In this document: one piece after another, positions 34,051 to 59,128 of the stretch
Numbering within the stretch: the stretch's first letter is position 1
Layout of the letters: every line of letters starts with the position of its first letter
NCBI RefSeq assembly: GCF_003841505.1
Contig: NZ_REGA01000013.1
Location: forward strand, 62,001-126,000
Source of the DNA: Natrarchaeobius chitinivorans
Lineage (GTDB): Archaea; Halobacteriota; Halobacteria; Halobacteriales; Natrialbaceae
Direction of reading: 5' to 3'
Length of the DNA stretch: 64,000 nucleotides
Notes under the pieces: generated by a model
Database searches by the model: none
What the model was told of the DNA's origin: nothing
The model's input: the letters and a program-made list of their open reading frames with translations, nothing else
Translations under genes and position numbers: made by a program

Positions 34051-34932
34051 TTACGTATTCACGTCCTCGATTCGCTGGCTGACGACGATTCTCCCTTTCG
34101 GCGTTAGCGCGATCCCGTCTTCTTGCTCGACGATCAGATCCTTGGTCTGAACCGAATTCAAGACGTTCGTCACGTACGCCGGATCACCATCGAGCATATT
34201 CGTAAAGTCGATGTCGCCACCCGTCGCGTGAACGCTGACGAGGACTCGCTTTTCGGGGTTAGTCAACTCGATCTCCTCGACTTCTTCCCGCAACTCGTCG
34301 AACTCGAGCCGGAGATATCTCGCGAGGAGATTGACGTACTGGCTCTTCGTCGGCGAAATCAACGTCGTCTTCGTGAGCCCTGACTCGTTTTCGATGTATT
34401 TCACAGTGAGTGTTACTCGATCGTCGCGCTGGCCGAGTTCGTTCGTCCGTCCGATTTTCATCACGCTCTCGACGTCGATACTGAACGTTTTGCTCTCGGT
34501 AGCGACGTCGATCGCCCGACTTTTGATCCGAATTTTCCCGGTTACGACCGGCGTGTCTTTCACGCGTCCGCCAACCCGGGCGGGGTGTTTCACTGCGACC
34601 GTTCGTCCGTTTAACAGACACCGAAAGAGTATCGCGACGAACTTCGATACCGTCTCGCTCTGGCTTTCGATCACCGCGCTTCGAACGCCGCTTTCGGTTT
34701 CGTAACCGATCGTTATCGTATCGTCGAAAAACCGTTTGACGTGGTTCGGGACGGTCCCGACGTTTACGTCGATTACCGTCGACAGTGGAACGGTCGTCCT
34801 CTCGTCGTTCGTCGCGAGGACCAGTCGTTTCCGCGTCAGAATAATTCGGCCGTTAGAGGGCATTTCGCCGCCATCTTCGCCACGGCTGAGAAAGAACCGC
34901 GCGGTAAAATCGGCGACGACGTCTTCGTTCAT
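34051..34932 (-). CDS. cheF: CheF adaptor (archaeal che/archaellum link), first copy
   Basis: A 293-residue protein of the archaeal CheF (DUF439) family, which binds CheY, CheD and CheC and connects them to the archaellum motor complex. Recognised by the opening VVADFTARFFLSRGEDGGEMP, NGRIILTRKRLVLATNDERTTVPLSTVIDV, KHPARVGGRV, and a C-terminal winged-helix-like part (NPEKRVLVSVHATGGDIDFTNML, IALTPKGRIVVSQ). No membrane segment. The second copy is at 50070. Two CheF copies near each other are known from Halobacterium. Located between cheW and cheY on the minus strand. Confidence 0.87.
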   Translation of the reverse strand: MNEDVVADFTARFFLSRGEDGGEMPSNGRIILTRKRLVLATNDERTTVPLSTVIDVNVGTVPNHVKRFFDDTITIGYETESGVRSAVIESQSETVSKFVAILFRCLLNGRTVAVKHPARVGGRVKDTPVVTGKIRIKSRAIDVATESKTFSIDVESVMKIGRTNELGQRDDRVTLTVKYIENESGLTKTTLISPTKSQYVNLLARYLRLEFDELREEVEEIELTNPEKRVLVSVHATGGDIDFTNMLDGDPAYVTNVLNSVQTKDLIVEQEDGIALTPKGRIVVSQRIEDVNT

Positions 34933-35079: not shown

Positions 35080-35514
35080 TCAGACTCGAACCTCGGTCGG
35101 ATCGATCCAGAGGACGAAGTTGGTTTCTCGCCGGACGATTCCTGCGATTCCCGCACTGCTTACGGACGTGTCGACGTCTACCGTCTCGAGTTCCTGCACC
35201 TGGTGGACTTCGTCGGCGAGCCACCCGATCCGATCGTTCGATTCTCGTTTTCGTTTGAACACGATGATCCGGTCACCGAGTTCGTCGCTTTCTCCCTCGC
35301 CGAAGATCTTTCGGAGATTGACGATTTTCGTGGTTTCGCCGCGAAGATCCATCACGCCCTCGATGTGAGCCGGGGTGTTCGGGACCGCGGTCAGTTCGTC
35401 GGTGTTGACGATTTCTGCGACGTATCCGATATCGACGCAGTATCGGTTCTCACCGAGATCGAACTCGAGTACGTGCGTACTCGCCGCTTCGGTTACGTGG
35501 TTCGTCGTTGCCAT
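35080..35514 (-). CDS. cheW: CheW scaffold protein
   Basis: A 144-residue SH3-like adaptor joining receptors and CheA. Typical blocks: THVLEFDLGENRYCVDIGYVAEIV, VPNTPAHIEGVMDLRGETTKIVNL and the DRIIVFKRK to WLADEVHQV core. It is only two bases after the stop of the transducer gene, so receptor and adaptor are made together. A second, much longer CheW-domain protein is at 37361. Confidence 0.93.
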   Translation of the reverse strand: MATTNHVTEAASTHVLEFDLGENRYCVDIGYVAEIVNTDELTAVPNTPAHIEGVMDLRGETTKIVNLRKIFGEGESDELGDRIIVFKRKRESNDRIGWLADEVHQVQELETVDVDTSVSSAGIAGIVRRETNFVLWIDPTEVRV

Positions 35515-35516
35515 CG

Positions 35517-37142
35517 TTATCTGGTGTCGTCTACGCTCGTCAGCCGGCGAATTTCGGCGTCGATCTCGCCAACGAGGTCCTCGAGGCGATCGTTGAGCGC
35601 GACGATGTCGTCGATTTCGGCAGCCACCTGCTGGGATTGCTCCATCGCCGTATCGGTCATACTCGCGACCTCTTCGGTGGTCGCGGCCTGGTCGTCGGTC
35701 GCGACGGCGACCTCTTCGATCCCGGTGCTCGCCTCGGTGATGGAGGCCCTGATCCGTTCGAGGTTGTCGACGGTTTCCTCGACGAGCGTGACGCCGTCGG
35801 CGATCTCGTCGTTGGCAGTCTCGAGGCTGTCGACGGTCTCCTGGGTGTCGTCCTGTATCTGATCGACCATCTCCTCGATGGTCGACGCCTCCTCCTGGGA
35901 TTCCTCGGCGAGTGACTTGACCTCGTTTGCGACGACGGCGAAGCCGTCGCCGGCCTCGCCGGCGGTAGCGGCCTCGATGGAGGCGTTGAGCGCGAGCAGG
36001 TTGGTCTGGTCGGCGATGTCGTTGATGACTTCGACGATTTCGTCGATGCGCTGGACGCCGTCACGGAGGTCCTCGACGTCGTCGGTGACGGTCTCGGCGG
36101 CGTTCTCGACGCGTTCCATCTTGTCGATGGCCTCTCGTGCGGTTCCGGTCGTCTCCTCGGCGAGCTCTTCGGCCTGTTCGCTGGTGGCGCTTACTTCCTC
36201 GGCGTTGGAGGCGATCTCTTCGACCGTCGCGGAGAGCCCCGACACCTCGCTTGCGATCTCGTTCATCGATCCGGCCTGTTCCGTTGCCAGATCGTTGATC
36301 TCGTCCGTACTCTCGGAAACGTCGTCGGAAACGGTTCGGACGTCCTCGAGCGTCGACCGGACGTTTTCGCTGGCGTCTTCGATCTCTTCTCGGCTTCGAT
36401 CGTCCTCCTCGAGTTTCGATTCGTAGGCGTCGATCAGTTCTTCGTACTCTTCGAGTTTCGACTCGTACTCCTCGAGACGCGACTCGTATTCAGCGATCCG
36501 TTCGTCCTGTGCGTTCGCGTACGCCCGGATCGCGAGTTGCTCGTCGACGTTTGCGAGTCGGACGAACGAGAGAGTCCGTTCGACGACGGTGTCGACGGCG
36601 GTCGAAACCGGTCCGTCGTTCGTCGTCGTGACGACGCCGCCGTCGGTCCGGCTACCGTCGACCGGTTCCAGGCCGCCCTCGTCGCCGTACTCGGCTTTGA
36701 CGTCTGCTGCGATCTCTTCGAGTACGCCCTCGTAGTAGACGGTCCGCGAACCGAGGAAGACGTCGGGCCGCGATGCGAGAACCGGGCCGACCCCCTCGGC
36801 CGAGAGCCGCTGGCCGAAGAACTCCTCGTCGTACTGGCCGCGTCCGATCGACTCCAGGGTCGTTTGTTGACCCCGCTCGAGTGCACCCTCGTCCGGAACG
36901 GTCTCGGGAAGCGTCCCGTTTTCGCCCGCGTGGGTTCGGACGCGGTCTGTGAACGCCGCAGCGAGGTCCGCTCCCGCGGCGTCGAATACGTGGTGTATCG
37001 ATTCGAGTACGTTTTCGTCTTCGTCGCGGAGCGAAGCGAGCTGTTTCGCCTGGTTCACGTCGGCGGTCCCCACGTCGAAATTCGCAATGGATCGGCCGAG
37101 TTCGGCGTCGGGATCGGTCGCTCCACCGTCGGATCTAGACAT
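35517..37142 (-). CDS. Soluble methyl-accepting transducer with globin-like N-terminal domain
   Basis: A 541-residue chemoreceptor with no membrane segment. Residues about 20-150 look like a globin-coupled sensor domain ([41 protein letters not shown]). A coiled coil rich in [12 protein letters not shown] follows, then the signalling domain with the hairpin tip [35 protein letters not shown]-like sequence. Glu/Gln-rich methylation regions flank it. In HemAT proteins the proximal heme ligand His precedes this YLGAY-type segment; here the matching position in [11 protein letters not shown] reads Gly, so heme binding is doubtful. It is followed at 2 bp by cheW. Confidence 0.85.
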
Positions 37143-37360: not shown

Positions 37361-38380
37361 TTATTCCGTGTTTTCGATGATCGCGTCGATGTCGAGCCAC
37401 GTGACGAGGTTCGTTCGGCCGTCGGTGTTCTTTTTGATGATCCCCTCGATGAACTCGTGTTGGTGGTCGGCGGTCGTATCCATCACCGACCCGGTTTCGT
37501 CGATCTGGGACTCCCGATAGGTGACCGCCTGGGAGACGTCGGTGACGCGGATACCGAGTTTCTGTTTGTCGTCGTCGCGTTTGAGGACGACGATGTAGTG
37601 GTCCTCCGAGAGTTCGTTTCGGTCGACGTCGAGCATGACCGTCGGATCCAGAATGCCGGTGATCTCGCCGCGGAGATCGGTGACGCCGTCGATCGCGTCC
37701 GGTCCACGGGGGAATCGAGTTATCTCTTTCATCTCGACGATAGCGCTTATCCGATCGATTTCGACGGCGTAACGACTTTCGTTGAGGAAGAACTCGAGCA
37801 TCTGAACCGTGTTTTCGGAGTCGTGAGCGGAGTGGATCAGTGCGCTCCCCTGTTCGAACACGGCTTCGTCCCGGCCGATCGCTGCCCTGCACGACTCGTC
37901 GGTGTCCATCGTGAGGACGGACGCATCGACCGTCGGTTCGTCACCCATTGTTTCGGTCGACGTCACCATCTCCGACGTATCAGCGATCGCTCCCTGAAGC
38001 GCCGGCTCGACGTTCTGGCGATCGGCCCCATCCGGTGTCGACGTCTCTGACGGTGCGTCGACCGTTTCGGCTTCGTCGAACTCGACCGTCTCGCCGGAGT
38101 CAGTTCGATCCGATGGGTCGGCGGTCGCTCGTTCGTCCGAACGCGACGGCGTGTTCTGCCCGATACCCGATTCGTCCGGCCCGTCGCTTCCGTCGTCCTC
38201 GGCCGTCGTTGTCGCATCGTCTTCCGATCGGCTTTCGGTGGTCGTTACGTCCTCGGCCGTTTCGTCGTCACCTGGCTCGTCTTCGGACGATCCGGTATCG
38301 CCTTCCGAGTCGGAACCGTCTCGATCGCTTCCGACTCGATTTCGGAGGTTTCGCAGTCGTTTCGCCCTGTCGTCGGTCAT
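37361..38380 (-). CDS. Long CheW-domain protein with disordered acidic N-terminus
   Basis: A 339-residue protein. Residues 1 to about 190 are low-complexity, acidic and Ser/Thr-rich (SEDEPGDDETAEDV). Residues about 195-335 are a CheW-like fold: VQMLEFFLNESRYAVEIDRISAIVEMKEITRFPRGPDAIDGVTDLRGEITGIL (in pieces), then DHYIVVLKRDD and GIRVTDVSQAVTY. Its gene overlaps parA by 4 bp, so the two proteins are made together. This pairing recalls bacterial ParP, a CheW-like protein that links a ParA-type ATPase to receptor arrays; the link is inferred from domain logic and gene order. Otherwise it may just be a second CheW adaptor. Confidence 0.85.
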   Translation of the reverse strand: MTDDRAKRLRNLRNRVGSDRDGSDSEGDTGSSEDEPGDDETAEDVTTTESRSEDDATTTAEDDGSDGPDESGIGQNTPSRSDERATADPSDRTDSGETVEFDEAETVDAPSETSTPDGADRQNVEPALQGAIADTSEMVTSTETMGDEPTVDASVLTMDTDESCRAAIGRDEAVFEQGSALIHSAHDSENTVQMLEFFLNESRYAVEIDRISAIVEMKEITRFPRGPDAIDGVTDLRGEITGILDPTVMLDVDRNELSEDHYIVVLKRDDDKQKLGIRVTDVSQAVTYRESQIDETGSVMDTTADHQHEFIEGIIKKNTDGRTNLVTWLDIDAIIENTE

Positions 38381-39165
38381 GCCGGCACCCCCGTGGTCGC
38401 GAGCTGTTCGTCGATACGTTTTGCGACGTCCATGAATCGATCGGCCATGTCTATCTCCTCGTCGACCCCGAACACCGACCGCCCCTCGGTGAACGCTCGT
38501 TGAAGTGCGACCCGTTTACGCACCCGGTAACTGGGGACGTCGGGTAGTGCATCATCGAACCACTCGAGCATCGCCTCGTCTTCGCTCGTCGTTTCGATGC
38601 GATTGGCGACGAGTGCGACCGGTTCGATCTCGAGGCCGTGTTCCATCTCGAGCGAGCCGACGTAATCGAAGAGCAATTCGAGCGAGCGTTTGCTCGTCGG
38701 TTCTGTGAGCGCGGGAATCACGAGGTTTTCAGTCGCGTATAGGGCGTTGTCGGTGAGGACGCCGAGGTGTGGCGGACAGTCGACGACGACGAACTCGTAT
38801 TCGCTTTCGAGCCGATCGAGCAGTTCGGCCAGGTGGGTTTCGGGGGCTGACTGCTGGGCCAGCGTCGACGCAGCCGCGTTCATGTCGATGTTGCTCGTGA
38901 TGACGTCCATCTCCGGGTGTGAGTAGACGAGTTCCTCGGCCGCCACGCCATCCGGATCGACGAGTGCGTCGAGCAACGTCGGCGGCTCGTCGTCGTAGGC
39001 CTCGAGGCGGCCGAGTCCCTCCGTCGCGTTTCCCTGGGGATCGAGGTCGACGAACAGAACGTCGCGCCCGAGTTCGTTCAACGCACCGGCCACGTTGATG
39101 GCTACGGTCGTCTTCCCGACACCTCCTTTCTGATTTGTCACACAAAGCCGAGCGGGTCCCGCCAT
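38377..39165 (-). CDS. ParA/Soj-type partitioning ATPase in the che locus
   Basis: A 262-residue deviant-Walker P-loop ATPase. The deviant Walker A KGGVGKTT (about residues 13-20) carries the signature Lys, switch I is VDLDPQGNATEG, and Walker B is VVVDCPPHLG. The C-terminal part (RVRKRVALQRAFTEGRSVFG) matches ParA/Soj. Such ATPases place plasmids, chromosomes or protein clusters. No ParB gene or parS-like repeat is seen. The gene overlaps the CheW fusion, stands opposite cheY-cheB-cheA, and has a TATA-like box near 39190 that would make it leaderless. A role in chemosensory array placement is inferred. Confidence 0.88.
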   Translation of the reverse strand: MAGPARLCVTNQKGGVGKTTVAINVAGALNELGRDVLFVDLDPQGNATEGLGRLEAYDDEPPTLLDALVDPDGVAAEELVYSHPEMDVITSNIDMNAAASTLAQQSAPETHLAELLDRLESEYEFVVVDCPPHLGVLTDNALYATENLVIPALTEPTSKRSLELLFDYVGSLEMEHGLEIEPVALVANRIETTSEDEAMLEWFDDALPDVPSYRVRKRVALQRAFTEGRSVFGVDEEIDMADRFMDVAKRIDEQLATTGVPA

Positions 39166-39305: not shown

Positions 39306-39665
39306 ATGGCAGTCAACGTCTTGATCGTCGACAACTCCGAGGTGATCCGCGCGGTCCTTCGGGAGGCGATTTCCGAGGAGTTTCAGGTCGTCGCGGAGGC
39401 AGAAGACGGCGCTGAAGCTATCGACGTCGCTGAAACCGCCGCTATCGACGTCGTCATAATGGACCTCGTGATGCCCGGGGTCGACGGAATCGAAGCAACT
39501 GCCACGATCAAGGAACTCCATCCGGACGTGAAGGTCATCTTCTGTACGAGCGTTACCCAACAGGAACGAATGCAACCCGCGATCGAAGCGGGGGCGGACG
39601 GCTACGTCACGAAACCGTTCGAGCACAGCACGATTCAGAACGCGATTCGGGACGTTTTGCCCTGA
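39306..39665 (+). CDS. cheY: CheY-like receiver with altered acid pair
   Basis: A 119-residue receiver. Phosphoacceptor D53 is in VVIMDLVMPG, with Thr/Ser in FCTSVTQ and Lys in YVTKPFE. The Mg-binding acid pair near the N-terminus is D9-N10 (VDNSEVIR) where most CheY, including the copy at 33581, have DD. It overlaps cheB by one base, with cheA beyond, the usual place of the working cheY in haloarchaea. It may act as the main regulator, a phosphate sink or a modified partner; this is open. Confidence 0.9.
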   Translation: MAVNVLIVDNSEVIRAVLREAISEEFQVVAEAEDGAEAIDVAETAAIDVVIMDLVMPGVDGIEATATIKELHPDVKVIFCTSVTQQERMQPAIEAGADGYVTKPFEHSTIQNAIRDVLP

Positions 39666-40720
39666 TGGTTCGAGCCGTCATCGCGGACGACTCCGCCGTC
39701 ATGCGTGAAACCCTCGGCAAGATCCTCGAGGACGGCGGGATCGACGTCGTCGCACGAGCGAAAAACGGGACGGAAGCGGTGGATCTCATCGCCGACCGCA
39801 AGCCGGACGTGGCGACGATCGACATCCAGATGCCCGGGTTGACCGGCCACGAGGTGATCGAACGCGTGATGGCGGACAATCCGACGCCGATGCTGGTCAT
39901 CAGTTCGCAGACGACCAGAAACGCGGATGCGACGTTCGATGCGCTCGAGGCCGGCGCTGTCGACTTCATCGCCAAACCGTCGGGTGATAATTCGGTCGAT
40001 ATCTGGACCCAACAGGACAAGATCGTCGACCGAGTGCGGGCCGTCGCGGACGCTGACGTATCGCCGACGGACGCCGGAGGCGGACGGACGATCCACGAAC
40101 GGGCTCCGACGATCGACGAATCCGACGCGTTCCCGTCGGAGCCGACCCTCGTGATCGGTGCATCGACCGGCGGCCCGCGCGTCGTAGAGCGGGTACTGTC
40201 CGAACTCCCGAACCGAGCAGGACTACGAATACTGGTGGTACAACACATGGCTGATCATTACACGAAACGTTTCGCGAACCGTCTCAACGAACGAACCGAA
40301 TACGAGATCCGTGAGGCACGCGACGGCGACACGGTCGGACCCGGCGAGGGCGTCCTCGCGAAGGGCGGAGTCCACCTCGCCGTCACCGACTGCACCGACG
40401 GCCGAATTACGGTCGCCCACGACGACGGCCCCAAACGTCACAACGTCAGGCCGGCCATCGACGTCACGATGGAAACCGCTGCACAGCACGTCACGGGCAA
40501 TCTCGTCGGAACGATCCTGACCGGAATGGGTGCCGACGGCGCTGCCGGCCTCGAGGCGATTTCGGACGCGGGTGGGAAGGCGATCGTACAGGACGAAGGG
40601 ACCTCTCGAGTGTACGGAATGCCGAAGGTCGCTGCAGAACGCGTCGACGTCGATATGGTCCTTCCAGAGGGTCGGATCGCCGAAGGGATCACGAACGCGT
40701 TCCGGGGGTGGTCCGCGTGA
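39665..40720 (+). CDS. cheB: CheB, receptor methylesterase/deamidase
   Basis: A 351-residue enzyme that removes methyl groups from receptor glutamates. Receiver domain residues 1-120 with DD at 8-9 and phosphoacceptor D53 (ATIDIQMPG). A linker leads to the esterase: Ser in GASTGGPRVVE, His in VQHMADHYTKRF and Asp in GMGADGAAGLEA, the catalytic triad. It overlaps cheY at the start (A of ATG) and cheA at the end (GTGA), so the three are co-translated. Confidence 0.95.
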   Translation: MVRAVIADDSAVMRETLGKILEDGGIDVVARAKNGTEAVDLIADRKPDVATIDIQMPGLTGHEVIERVMADNPTPMLVISSQTTRNADATFDALEAGAVDFIAKPSGDNSVDIWTQQDKIVDRVRAVADADVSPTDAGGGRTIHERAPTIDESDAFPSEPTLVIGASTGGPRVVERVLSELPNRAGLRILVVQHMADHYTKRFANRLNERTEYEIREARDGDTVGPGEGVLAKGGVHLAVTDCTDGRITVAHDDGPKRHNVRPAIDVTMETAAQHVTGNLVGTILTGMGADGAAGLEAISDAGGKAIVQDEGTSRVYGMPKVAAERVDVDMVLPEGRIAEGITNAFRGWSA

Positions 40721-42753
40721 GTGATCCGACCAGTACCTTCGTCCAGGAAAGTCAGGAGGACATCCAGCAGTTGAACAATGCCCTCCTCGACCTCGAGAAC
40801 GCGGACGACCCGGAGAACTCCGACGCGATCGAGACGGTGTTTCGGGTCGCCCACAACCTCAAGGGCAACTTCGGCGTGATGGGATACACCGACGCGAGTG
40901 AGATCGCTCACGCGGTCGAGGACTTACTCGACTGTATCAGAAGCGGCGAACTCTCCGTCACAGGGGAGCGGATGGACCTTATCTTCAGCGGCGTCGATCT
41001 CCTCGATCAGATGGTCCAGGAGATCTCCGCCGACGGCGAGACAGAGGCGGATCCCGAGGCGACGATCGAGGAGATCCGCGCCTCGATCGAGGCCGGTGAA
41101 GCAGGCGACGAAGCTGAGTCCGGTGTGCGGGAGAGCGCCGAAGACGAGGCGGGATCGTCCGTCTCGTCGGACCGGGCGGTCCCACTCGAGGCCCTCGCCT
41201 CGGCGGTCGCCGACGACGACCGGGAGGAGGTCGACGTCTTCCGAACCGTCGTCGAGTTCGAAGAGACGGGGTCCGAACACGTCGACGCGATGTTCGTCAT
41301 CGACGCCATCGAAGACGAGTACGACCTCCTCACGCTCGAACCCGGAAACGACGTCATCGAAGAGGGCGAGTTCGATGCGACGTTCGACGCGTACGTCCTG
41401 ACGGACCCGTCCGTCTCGACGGACGAGGTGACCGCGTTCTACGAGGACAACCGGTACGTCGACGGTGTCTCAGTGTCCCGAATTACAGACGACGTCGTCG
41501 CCGAACACGACAGGCACTCTTCCGGGGACGATGCGACCGATCCGGAAGACGACGCGGGCGCTGGCGACGACACCGACGCCGGCTCGAGTTCGGGCTTCGC
41601 CCACGCCAGCCAGGAGGTCGAATCGATCAGGGTCGACGTCGAACAGGTCGATCAGCTGTACAATCAGGTCGAGGAGATGGTGACGAGCCGGATCAAACTC
41701 CGGAAGATCGTCGAGGAAAACGACCTCGTCGAAGCGGAAGACGAACTCGAGGAACACGGAAAGATCACGGCGAGCCTCCAGGATACGGTCCTCGAGATTC
41801 GCCTGGTTCCGCTGAAGAAAATCGTCGGCAACTTCCCGCGGGTCGTACGCGACCTCGCGAGAAAGCAAGAAAAGGAGATCGACTTCCAGATGGAGGGAGT
41901 CGACATCGAGATGGATCGATCGATCCTCAACGAACTGGGAGATCCGTTGATGCACCTCATCCGTAACGCGGTCGACCACGGCATCGAATCGCCGGCCGAA
42001 CGCGAACGCACGGGGAAACCGCCAGAGGGAACGATCAAACTCATCGGGGAGCGCGATCGGGATCGCGTCTCGGTGACGGTCCAGGACGACGGTCGCGGAC
42101 TCGACGTCGAGGAGATCCGCGAGAAAGCGATCGATCAGGGCGTCATCACCGAAGAGGAGGGACGCGTTCTCGAGGATTCGGAGGTTTACGACCTGATCTT
42201 CCACCCCGGATTCTCGACGACGGAGGAAGTTACCGAGGTCAGCGGTCGCGGCGTCGGCATGGACGTCGTCAACCAGGTGGTTCGTGGCGTCGACGGATCG
42301 ATCAACGTCGAGAGCGAACCGGGTGCGGGGACGAGCGTGACGCTCATGCTACCGGTGAGCGTCGCTATCGTTCGCGTCCTCTTCGTCACCGTCGGCGAGG
42401 AAACCTACGGCGTCCCGATCAAGAATATCGACGAAATCTCCGAACTCGAGGACGTGACGATCGAGACGGTCGAGGGGAGAGAGACCGTGACACACGACGA
42501 ACGCGTCTATCCGTTGCTCCCGCTTGATGATCGACTCGACGTTCCAGACGTCGAACCGTCCGGGGACGACATGGTCGTCCGGATCAAGGATACCGTGAGG
42601 CAGGTGTGTCTGCGCTGTTCCGACGTCGTCGGACAGGAGGAGGTCGTCATCAAACCTTTCGAAGGCGTCCTGAGTGGAGCCCCCGGAATCAGCGGCGCAT
42701 CGGTTCTCGGTGAGGGTGAAGTCGTGATGATACTGGACGTTGATACGCTGTGA
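40717..42753 (+). CDS. cheA: CheA, chemotaxis histidine kinase
   Basis: A 678-residue kinase (GTG start at 40717; a GTG 9 bases upstream is possible). HPt domain with phosphorylated H46 (RVAHNLKGNFG). A CheY/CheB-binding region lies around residues 160-270, then an acidic linker. Dimerisation helices contain IRVDVEQVDQLYNQVEEM. The HATPase domain has N-box HLIRNAVDHGIE, G1 DDGRGLD, G2 GRGVGMDVV, and the C-terminal CheW-like domain ends VVMILDVDTL. Length is normal for archaeal CheA. It overlaps cheB. It receives signals from receptors through CheW and phosphorylates CheY and CheB. Confidence 0.96.
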   Translation: MSDPTSTFVQESQEDIQQLNNALLDLENADDPENSDAIETVFRVAHNLKGNFGVMGYTDASEIAHAVEDLLDCIRSGELSVTGERMDLIFSGVDLLDQMVQEISADGETEADPEATIEEIRASIEAGEAGDEAESGVRESAEDEAGSSVSSDRAVPLEALASAVADDDREEVDVFRTVVEFEETGSEHVDAMFVIDAIEDEYDLLTLEPGNDVIEEGEFDATFDAYVLTDPSVSTDEVTAFYEDNRYVDGVSVSRITDDVVAEHDRHSSGDDATDPEDDAGAGDDTDAGSSSGFAHASQEVESIRVDVEQVDQLYNQVEEMVTSRIKLRKIVEENDLVEAEDELEEHGKITASLQDTVLEIRLVPLKKIVGNFPRVVRDLARKQEKEIDFQMEGVDIEMDRSILNELGDPLMHLIRNAVDHGIESPAERERTGKPPEGTIKLIGERDRDRVSVTVQDDGRGLDVEEIREKAIDQGVITEEEGRVLEDSEVYDLIFHPGFSTTEEVTEVSGRGVGMDVVNQVVRGVDGSINVESEPGAGTSVTLMLPVSVAIVRVLFVTVGEETYGVPIKNIDEISELEDVTIETVEGRETVTHDERVYPLLPLDDRLDVPDVEPSGDDMVVRIKDTVRQVCLRCSDVVGQEEVVIKPFEGVLSGAPGISGASVLGEGEVVMILDVDTL

Positions 42754-42755
42754 CG

Positions 42756-42848
42756 ATGGATTTCCGCGATTCGGCTCTGGAATCGACCGATTCGACCACG
42801 AGCGTCGTACCGTCTGGCGGTTCGACCGACGATCCGATTCGACGGTGA
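42756..42848 (+). CDS. Possible 30-codon small ORF between cheA and cheD
   Basis: An ATG two bases after the cheA stop opens a 30-codon frame (MDFRDSALESTDSTT...) that ends 5 bp before cheD. It fills the gap exactly, but the Ser/Thr/Asp-rich text is unremarkable and may be chance. No family recognised. Confidence 0.2.
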   Translation: MDFRDSALESTDSTTSVVPSGGSTDDPIRR

Positions 42849-42853
42849 CACCG

Positions 42854-43477
42854 ATGGGAAGACCAGACGACGAGCGCGATCCGTCCGACGACGATGACGG
42901 GCCGGTTTATGCGTCCAACGCGGACGATTCTGCTCGTCCCCTCTCTGCGGTGACCGACGGTACGTCGTCGGACGTTCCGTACGGCGCTGGTCGATCGAGA
43001 GAGGCGTTACTGGTAGGGATCGCGGATTTCGAAGTCACCGACGATGCCACGTTGCTCAAAACCAGTGGCCTGGGATCGTGTATCGGCGTCGCCGTTCACG
43101 ACGAAACGGCGGGGGTCTCCGGTCTCTTGCACTTCATGCTCCCGGCGGCGGCCGACGCACACAGTAGACGCCATCCGGACGCGAAGTTCGCCGACACCGG
43201 GATTTCGGCCATGCTCTCCGCATTTCGGGAGATCGGTGGTGACCCGGCCCGGTCGTGGGCGAAAAGTGCCGGAGCCGCAACGATGGTCGACTTTCCCGGG
43301 ACCAACCGTTCCATCGGCGAACGAAATATCGATGCCGTCACCCGCGAACTCGAGGCCGCAGGCGTACGGATTGCGGCGACGGATTTCGGTGGACAGTGCG
43401 GTCGGTCGATCGAGTTCGATCCGGTAACTGGAACGCTCACCGTCAGCCGTGCCGACGGATCCGAACGGATGCTGTAG
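42854..43477 (+). CDS. cheD: CheD, receptor glutamine deamidase
   Basis: A 207-residue enzyme that deamidates receptor glutamines and partners CheC. The catalytic Cys C76 lies in GLGSCIGVAVHD, His H93 in LLHFMLPAAAD, and the Thr-region in KFADTGISAML. The C-terminal GGQCGRSIEFDPVTG is typical. The first 45 residues are an acidic extension not present in short bacterial CheD; the ATG at 42854 fits a short gap after cheA. Last gene of the plus-strand cheY-B-A-D operon. Confidence 0.93.
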   Translation: MGRPDDERDPSDDDDGPVYASNADDSARPLSAVTDGTSSDVPYGAGRSREALLVGIADFEVTDDATLLKTSGLGSCIGVAVHDETAGVSGLLHFMLPAAADAHSRRHPDAKFADTGISAMLSAFREIGGDPARSWAKSAGAATMVDFPGTNRSIGERNIDAVTRELEAAGVRIAATDFGGQCGRSIEFDPVTGTLTVSRADGSERML

Positions 43478-43533: not shown

Positions 43534-44202
43534 TTATCGAGAGTCGCTCGAGTCCTCGTCGTCAGGTCGCTGGTTCCCGTCGCTGATCCGCTCGTTCTCG
43601 CCGTTCGTCGAGTTATCCCCGCCGGAACTCGTCTCGGTGACTTCGTCTTCCGGACTCGTATCGTTCTCCGCTCGGTCGGATTCGTCGCGGTCGCCACGAC
43701 TGCCGTCGACCGGTCGGCCGAACACCGTTCGATCGCTGTCTGGCCCGGCGGTGGGTCCATTTCCCCCGAGTCTGTCGAGAAAAGACGGCTGTCCTACGCG
43801 ATCGGTGCTGTCGTCGGGGAGGGTGTCGATGTCGACCCGCCGAAGCGCTCCGGGAACCGTACCGTCCTCGAACACGTCGTCGCCGTCGGTGTCGTCGAAC
43901 TCCGCGTCGGACGACTCCGCCGGCGGTTCGACGACGGTTTTTCCTTCGACCAGTGAATCCCACACTTCGTCGTCGTCGTCGACTTGCTGTCTGATTTCCC
44001 GGGCCTCGTTGCGTCCTTTCTGGAAGGCCAGATCGACGAAACTCCGATCGTAGTTCGATCCCGTCTGCTCGCCGAGTCGCTCGAGTTCCCCGGGATAGGT
44101 CCGTCCGAGGCGGGCGGCGACGCCGAGTGCAAACGCTCGTCTGACGACTTCTTCGGGGTCGTCGATCGTCTGCCAGTCGGTGTCGAAGGTCTGTTCGTAC
44201 AT
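43534..44202 (-). CDS. Acidic protein of unknown function next to cheD
   Basis: A 222-residue protein. Residues 1-90 are ordered (MYEQTFDTDWQTIDDPEEVV, ALGVAARLGRTYPGELERL, AFQKGRNEAREIRQQVDDD), the rest is a very acidic, Ser/Asn-rich tail. I recall similar proteins beside archaellum/che genes but cannot name the family. Its start is one base from the stop of the upstream KaiC-like gene (both minus strand), so they are co-expressed. It may act as partner or scaffold of that ATPase. Confidence 0.7.
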   Translation of the reverse strand: MYEQTFDTDWQTIDDPEEVVRRAFALGVAARLGRTYPGELERLGEQTGSNYDRSFVDLAFQKGRNEAREIRQQVDDDDEVWDSLVEGKTVVEPPAESSDAEFDDTDGDDVFEDGTVPGALRRVDIDTLPDDSTDRVGQPSFLDRLGGNGPTAGPDSDRTVFGRPVDGSRGDRDESDRAENDTSPEDEVTETSSGGDNSTNGENERISDGNQRPDDEDSSDSR

Positions 44203-44203
44203 C

Positions 44204-44914
44204 TCAAGACTGGATCTTTTCGGTGGGGTCGACCCGAAGCCCGCGGTCGGTGAACTCGACCTTTCGGATGTCACAGTCGATTTTCGTCCCTCGCATCTTG
44301 ATTATCTGGACTCCCCTGGTCATCCCGCCGGACTCGAGGTAGTTGTGCATGAAGATGACGCCGTGGGCCAGGTAGTGACCGTCCGAGTAGGAGGTCGGAT
44401 CGGTCATCTCGGAGATCAACATCACCGTCGCGTCGGCGCGTTTGAGCTTCGTCAGGAACTTGATTAGCGCGTCGAGATCGTCCGAAAAGTAGTACTCGAG
44501 TAACATCGTCGAGTCGATGACGAGTCGGTCGACGCCTTTCGATTCGACGAACGCGACGAGCTGGTTGGCGAGGTTGTCGACGTTTTTCGGGAACTCGTTT
44601 TTGTTTCGGGACGACGGCGACAACAGCCGCTTGGCTTCGCTTTCGAAGGCGTTGAGTACTTTCACGTGCCCGGAGTTGACGGCCTGGTCGAACCCGAACT
44701 CGTAGTTGCCGAGGTCGGAGACGAGTTCCGCTTCCGTCTCGTGTAACGTCAAAAACAGCGTCGTTTCGCCGTCGATCGCTCCTTTCGTGACGAACTGCGA
44801 GCAAAACGTCGTCTTGCCGCTTCCTGGCGGGCCGCTGATTACGTACAACCGGTCTTTGAGAAGACCTCCGTCGACCAGCGCGTCGAAGCCGGGTACGCCC
44901 GTTGTGATTCGCAT
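44204..44914 (-). CDS. Single-domain KaiC/RadA-like ATPase
   Basis: About 236-238 residues with a RecA fold of the KaiC/RAD55 group. Walker A is GPPGSGKTTF, and the hydrophobic strand with acid VDRLVIDSTMLLEYYF is Walker B. Typical KaiC tail: VIFMHNYLESGGMTRGVQIIKMRGTKID (in pieces). It resembles ArlH in fold but lacks ArlH's sequence, so it is a separate ATPase. Either of two adjacent ATG codons (44914 or 44917) can start it. Its job in the che/arl locus is unknown; it could regulate array or motor assembly. Confidence 0.82.
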   Translation of the reverse strand: MRITTGVPGFDALVDGGLLKDRLYVISGPPGSGKTTFCSQFVTKGAIDGETTLFLTLHETEAELVSDLGNYEFGFDQAVNSGHVKVLNAFESEAKRLLSPSSRNKNEFPKNVDNLANQLVAFVESKGVDRLVIDSTMLLEYYFSDDLDALIKFLTKLKRADATVMLISEMTDPTSYSDGHYLAHGVIFMHNYLESGGMTRGVQIIKMRGTKIDCDIRKVEFTDRGLRVDPTEKIQS

Positions 44915-45070
44915 CATCAATGATCAGGTGTGTACCGGATAAATAAATTCTGCATTTATATTGGAAGGTTGTGGTGAAAAAATACGAACGGTGGCCAGAG
45001 ACCACCGGACTGACAGTCCTCGAGTGGTCCTGAAGGATTCACCTGCCTGCTGACGGGCGTTTTCGAGTCG

Positions 45071-58483: not shown

Positions 58484-59128
58484 TTATTCGATTGCCTCGA
58501 GCAGTTCTCCCAGGCTGCTCGACCTATCGAGACCGTGTTTTCTGGCCGCCTGACGAAGCTGTACCGGCGACAGTGGCGGTGCGAACTCGGAGCGCTCGAT
58601 GAGCAGTGAGGCCGTCCGCTGGGTTGGCGTCTCTGTCGCGACGTGCTGTGCGTACCAGAGAACCAGGTTATTGAACGTCCCGACGACGTCGTCGGAACTC
58701 GTTCGATGACGGACCGCCGTCCGGTCGAACTGCGCGACGATGTCGAGTGCAAACCGCGCATCCGTTCGATCGAGTTCGTCAGCAAGAACCGATCGTGCCA
58801 CTTCCGGGCTCCGGATGGGCTTCTGACCGTCGTCGGTCGGACCGTCCGGGGTGTCCGATCGATTTGGATCCCGACTGTGGTGGTTCTGTGGTTGTGGTGG
58901 GGTTCGATCGGAGTCCGCGGTGGTGTCCGGGACGCCAGTGGGGCGTTTCTCCGAGGAAACGACGAACCTCCCTTCGGACACTTTCGAGACGTACGGACTG
59001 TCGGTAAAATCGAGTTCCTCCGGAGAGAGAGCCCCGCCACTTCCGGAGGGCTTTGGCTGCTCGCTCGGGAGTACAGGCGGCACGTCGGCTTTCTCTTTCG
59101 GGTTATCTTCCTTGTTACTGTCCGGCAT
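58484..59128 (-). CDS. Disordered-plus-helical protein (DUF7500-like) in the arl locus
   Basis: 214 residues. N-terminal low-complexity part, a short conserved block (LSPEELDFTDSPYVSKVSEGRFVVSS), another linker, and a C-terminal helical domain (RSVLADELDRTDARFALDIVAQFD, LVLWYAQHVATETPTQRTASLLIER). I recall the block from haloarchaeal proteins near archaellum genes, so the DUF number is from memory. It is read opposite to the arl genes and may regulate or interact with them. Function unknown. Confidence 0.65.
   Translation of the reverse strand: MPDSNKEDNPKEKADVPPVLPSEQPKPSGSGGALSPEELDFTDSPYVSKVSEGRFVVSSEKRPTGVPDTTADSDRTPPQPQNHHSRDPNRSDTPDGPTDDGQKPIRSPEVARSVLADELDRTDARFALDIVAQFDRTAVRHRTSSDDVVGTFNNLVLWYAQHVATETPTQRTASLLIERSEFAPPLSPVQLRQAARKHGLDRSSSLGELLEAIE

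Follow-up and report, generated by a model that had tools for sequence, protein, structure and literature searches.

Among the closest described counterparts of the locus is the ParC/ParP system of Vibrio. The adaptor ParP joins an N-terminus that binds ParC to a CheW-like domain, and its gene lies directly downstream of the ParA-like gene in a che operon (PMC5706961). The same gene order was found in the window, the 64,000-nucleotide stretch of Natrarchaeobius chitinivorans DNA analysed as a whole, and the adaptor architecture is also alike, with a long linker between a C-terminal CheW-like domain and an N-terminus that in the window adaptor would likewise bind the ATPase. The Vibrio linker is proline-rich and ParP acts with HubP and a CheA-LID, whereas the window adaptor has an acidic linker. 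Unlike the Vibrio pair, the window pair combines a CheW domain of the main CheW1 type with a ParA of haloarchaeal plasmid type; among the ParAs found here, those nearest to it come from haloarchaeal plasmids. A ParC with a CheW partner is also present in Halothiobacillus neapolitanus, a bacterial case for which we found no plasmid cassette origin described. In Rhodobacter sphaeroides the ParA-like protein PpfA is believed to place a cluster in the cytoplasm over the nucleoid, and the N-terminus of its partner TlpT is basic, as in the window adaptor (PMC7993993, PMC5706961); TlpT is a cytoplasmic chemoreceptor, whereas the window partner is a CheW protein with no MCP domain.

MinD4 and MinD2 of Haloferax volcanii are, like the window ParA, ATPases of the ParA/MinD family, and they affect the placement of array and archaellum (PMC11588486), but they are of the MinD family and no CheW-fusion partner gene was found described for them. 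In the literature searched, array positioning in archaea depends on MinD homologues and no adaptor joining an ATPase to the array is described. The window locus is a concrete two-gene candidate for such a system. It would also illustrate how a ParA system can acquire new cargo: the activator tail remains with its ParA and the C-terminal domain is replaced.

The parA and adaptor genes in their che-archaellum setting

The sequence-only reading had noted a ParA gene overlapping by 4 bp a protein with a C-terminal CheW domain, and both observations held: the adaptor ATG overlaps the parA TGA in the window sequence (Table 1), and the only Pfam match of the adaptor is a single CheW domain (E 1e-22), in agreement with the predicted fold. 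The adaptor AlphaFold2 model comprised a helix at residues 3-17 (pLDDT ~70-77), a low-confidence region at ~18-190 and then a CheW fold, with CheW matches in the PDB down to E 7e-11. The 190-residue disordered N-terminus proposed earlier is thus retained for residues ~18-190, but the first ~17 residues form a conserved basic helix. Conservation falls from the peptide to the linker, the mean top-residue frequency being 0.77 in the peptide and 0.28 in the linker.

Table 1. Positions of the pair, its parts and neighbouring genes in the window.
Feature	Position	Strand	Remarks
ParA-family ATPase, 262 aa	38377..39165	-	Fold like that of Soj; in the clade of haloarchaeal plasmid ParAs
Adaptor (N-terminal peptide, acidic linker, CheW domain), 339 aa	37361..38380	-	
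ATGA shared by the parA stop and adaptor start codons	38377..38380	-	
Deviant Walker A motif KGGVGKTT, ParA residues 13-20	39106..39129	-	Conservation assessed in 49 relatives
Basic segment RVRKRVALQ, ParA residues 214-222	38500..38526	-	Aligned near the PRNVRL segment of Soj (8ray)
Basic N-terminal helix MTDDRAKRLRNLRNRVG, adaptor residues 1-17	38330..38380	-	Proposed ParA-binding/ATPase-activating peptide
Disordered linker, acidic, D/E/S/T-rich, adaptor residues 18-190	37811..38329	-	
CheW domain, CheW1-type, adaptor residues 193-337	37370..37804	-	
Soluble methyl-accepting transducer	35517..37142	-	No predicted TM helix
Stand-alone CheW	35080..35514	-	Clade separate from fused CheW
cheF	34051..34932	-	Link to archaellum motor
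cheY	39306..39665	+	Divergent from parA
cheB	39665..40720	+	
cheA	40708..42753	+	
cheD	42740..43477	+	

ParA matched the Pfam families AAA_31 (E 2e-40) and CbiA, and its AlphaFold2 model (pLDDT 90.9) showed a ParA fold with a last helix at residues 239-256 followed by a short disordered end. The top-ranked solved folds were Soj and ParA structures, with 8ray matching at E 1e-18 and a TM score of 0.85. The score against the archaeal MinD model TIGR01969 was 59.6 bits, far below the cut-off of 201.75. A signature-lysine deviant Walker A motif together with the Soj-like fold places the protein among ParAs of the Soj type. In 49 relatives the residues K13, G14, G15, G17 and K18 were invariant and T19 and T20 nearly so. 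The basic segment was also conserved in these relatives, with R218 invariant and R216 and Q222 present in at least 90%; by comparison with Soj it is a candidate non-specific DNA-binding site.

On the minus strand the adaptor gene is followed by genes for the soluble MCP, CheW, CheF, CheY2 and CheC, with cheR also on that side, and the other flank contains cheY-B-A-D, a second CheF and arl genes, so that the whole constitutes a full che and archaellum cluster. The order had been described correctly beforehand as far as the transducer, CheW and the opposite cheY-B-A-D are concerned. Of the locus genes that were examined, none was recognized as a ParB homologue, in line with the earlier observation that none was visible. 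Two further features of the cluster were recorded. A gene for a KaiC-domain protein (44204-44920) and a hypothetical gene (43534-44274) lie near cheD and are kept in many loci of the window type. Within the archaellum cluster, arlJ and a gene that matches arlC/E flank a DUF7500 gene (58484-59128) on the opposite strand.

Conservation and further fusion types

The sequence-only reading had proposed a search for the pair across haloarchaeal che loci. In a survey of the class (391 genomes), clear orthologues of the adaptor (E < 1e-50) and of ParA (at least 64% identity) were found in the same 27 genomes, all from the family of the window, Natrialbaceae. The two genes were adjacent in every carrier and overlapped by four nucleotides in all 27 pairs (GTGA in one). 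Adaptor identity was 47-66%. In 25 of the 26 loci fetched besides the window, cheY, cheB or cheA was the divergent upstream neighbour of the pair. Natrialba magadii appears to be among the carriers; its genome paper gives two CheW proteins for the che locus and, searched for ParA, makes no mention of a window-type parA (PMC3403918). Many motile haloarchaea are without the pair. Among the best matches listed from sampled genomes of the phylum outside Halobacteria, nearly all consisted of the CheW domain only.

Array-linked pairs were found in three forms: that of the window, with a CheW1-type domain; one in the Haloarcula family, with another type of CheW; and one with a CheW1-type domain and a different plasmid ParA type. 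The Haloarcula-type pairs, which also occur in a genus (g64) of a further family and probably in Haloarcula marismortui, have a ParA 50-59% identical to that of the window, overlapping a CheW fusion of ~290-510 aa (by four nucleotides in 15/16 pairs), and are located outside the che cluster. In 13 of the 16 loci the gene divergent from parA encodes a neighbour matching ArlC/ArlCE of the window, and the one case tested with Pfam is a FlaD/E-domain protein (PF04659); this raises the possibility of a link between array and archaellum placement. The third form was found in a single genus, with the fusion inside the che cluster and an adjoining ParA only 36-37% identical to that of the window. In the fusions of genus g64 (~490-510 aa) several copies of a basic R-A-x-R-I motif were observed in the linker, suggesting multivalent contact with ParA.

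Plasmid relatives, N-terminal tail and CheW domain

The closest ParAs without che neighbours, 50-60% identical, are from haloarchaeal plasmids or plasmid-like contigs, and most of the plasmid-type ParAs overlap a partner gene by ATGA. The partners share a plan of basic N-terminal peptide, acidic linker and a common C-terminal domain other than CheW. An example is pHS4 of H. salinarum, which encodes a ParA 59% identical to that of the window together with a hypothetical protein. The window pair has the ParA, overlapping partner, basic peptide and acidic linker of such cassettes, but has CheW in place of their uncharacterized, presumably DNA-binding, C-terminal domain. Since the plasmid partners share the peptide and linker and differ in the C-terminal domain, the window adaptor looks like a plasmid ParA partner with its cargo domain exchanged for CheW. 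The C-terminal domain of the plasmid partners gave no Pfam match and no convincing PDB match, and a DNA-binding role, and hence the swap of cargo, is therefore presumed from the plasmid setting. Clustering of the ATPase with plasmid ParAs had been named in advance as refuting array positioning. The ATPase does cluster there, yet the idea survives because the plasmid partner has a different C-terminal domain and the relationship explains the origin of the pair. ORF46-47 of the Natrialba phage PhiCh1 also encode a ParA overlapping a partner of similar plan, without the exact tail motif described below.

A short N-terminus, basic or charged and disordered, on a cargo-binding part is common to activators of ParA/MinD ATPases (PMC7993993, PMC10241942), and by this analogy the N-terminal helix of the adaptor would bind ParA and activate its ATPase. 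A tail motif, R[AS].R[ILM][RKS]..R, composed after inspection of the sequences, was counted within the first 32 residues. It was present in 27/27 window-type adaptors, 16/16 of the Haloarcula type and 21/26 plasmid partners, orthologues that are not independent of one another, against 0/44 CheWs without ParA, 4/5941 other open reading frames and a shuffled rate of ~0.0005. The third type (0/2) is without the motif, and its tail instead aligned with the partner that accompanies its own type of plasmid ParA (Z 20.7 and 26.5; 0/2000 shuffles), the plasmid ParA of that partner being 67% identical to the third-type linked ParA. In shuffled pairwise tests the window tail aligned with partners of its own ParA type (Z 4.6-7.3) but not with the third-type tail (Z 0.4). 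As each tail matches partners of its own type and the two types do not match each other, the tail tracks ParA rather than the fused CheW, and this specificity is a control independent of the post hoc motif. A 30-residue HMM of the plasmid partner N-termini was too short and insensitive (4/48 fusions below E 0.01), and the motif count and shuffled pairwise tests were used.

The fused CheWs of the window and third types grouped with CheWs of other haloarchaea whose genes adjoin cheY-B-A, the place of CheW1 (support 100/100), whereas the Haloarcula-type domain was placed elsewhere in the tree (98/89). A single clade of window-type and Haloarcula-type fused CheWs was rejected by the AU test (p-AU 3.7e-5), and the fused domains are by their sequences of more than one origin. 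CheW1 of H. salinarum binds transducers and CheA, and CheW2 is without CheA binding (PMC3579733). The grouping with the CheA-binding CheW indicates that the fused CheW probably functions within the main array, where it may serve as the principal adaptor and not as an accessory one. The window-type ParAs form one clade (100/100), with the Haloarcula-type ParAs as sisters at 78/39, a support at which a single clade of all array-linked ParAs is neither shown nor rejected. We favour, with some reserve, the view that haloarchaeal arrays captured plasmid ParA modules more than once through an activating tail grafted on CheW, converting a mobile partition machine into a system of cell organisation with an exchangeable cargo domain. 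A stronger form would have the link reversed as well, the array anchoring the chromosome through ParA.

Probable array positioning and other explanations

The pair resembles a kit for plasmid self-segregation in which the presumed DNA-gripping end is replaced by an array part, and therefore probably positions or shares out sensory arrays. We estimate at roughly three in four the probability that a haloarchaeal plasmid partition cassette was turned here into an array-positioning (partition) module, with ParA on the nucleoid moving or distributing arrays via the CheW-borne peptide. ParA-ATP would bind the nucleoid non-specifically, and the adaptor would enter chemosensory arrays through its CheW1-type domain. 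The basic helix, on its long acidic tether, would then bind ParA and stimulate ATP hydrolysis, and repeated binding and release would shift arrays along the nucleoid or spread them over it, leaving each daughter with one. The gene pair, its architecture and conservation, the plasmid-type ParA and the common N-terminal peptide are supported directly by the sequences. The likeness to ParC/ParP and PpfA/TlpT put forward in the sequence-only reading gains from the che-linked conservation, the activator-like peptide and the separate combinations in other families; it is qualified by the CheW1-type domain, which may belong to the main adaptor. Arrays of Haloferax are polar, and partitioning a polar membrane array by the nucleoid is not straightforward, which counts against positioning by ParA. 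So do the effect of MinD2 and MinD4 on arrays in Haloferax (PMC11588486) and the lack of the pair in many motile haloarchaea. MinD homologues are also encoded by the pair-carrying genomes, and the ParA-CheW pair would consequently act beside MinD.

Alternatively, ParA could regulate assembly of the array rather than its position, with tail binding capturing or releasing CheW1, and growth phase or ATP state deciding whether arrays form or dissolve. The grouping of the fused CheW with the kinase-coupling CheW1 (PMC3579733) means that tail binding could control assembly directly, and Haloferax arrays do disassemble in stationary phase (PMC6509185); we nevertheless regard this explanation as unlikely, as the ParA relatives with such partners are plasmid-borne, presumably in partition cassettes, and the conserved basic segment aligned to that of Soj suggests use of the nucleoid. 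It is more improbable still that ParA controls the divergent cheY-B-A-D operon, at the level of transcription or of signalling, and uses the CheW fusion as a sensor arm, for although the divergent layout with a short common intergenic region would suit this role, Haloarcula-type pairs carry the same tail outside the che cluster and ParA has no specific DNA-binding domain. Least probable of all is that the pair survives from an integrated plasmid, or from a chance fusion, and has no role in taxis. The plasmid type of the ParA would be expected of such a remnant, but both genes are kept in all 27 genomes with the adaptor identity given above and invariant catalytic residues, and more than one form of the combination is found.

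Positioning of arrays by the pair had also been proposed to concern perhaps the cluster of soluble transducers specifically. The gene recognized next to the pair encodes a soluble MCP in 16 of the 26 loci fetched and CheW in the remainder, a distribution that is not decisive for this restriction. The N-terminal part of the window transducer gave a marginal match to protoglobin (E 0.027) and may be a degenerate globin-type sensor. The same genome also encodes another che system, which comprises a CheA of 1255 aa, a 295-aa CheW1-like protein and a divergent second CheW.
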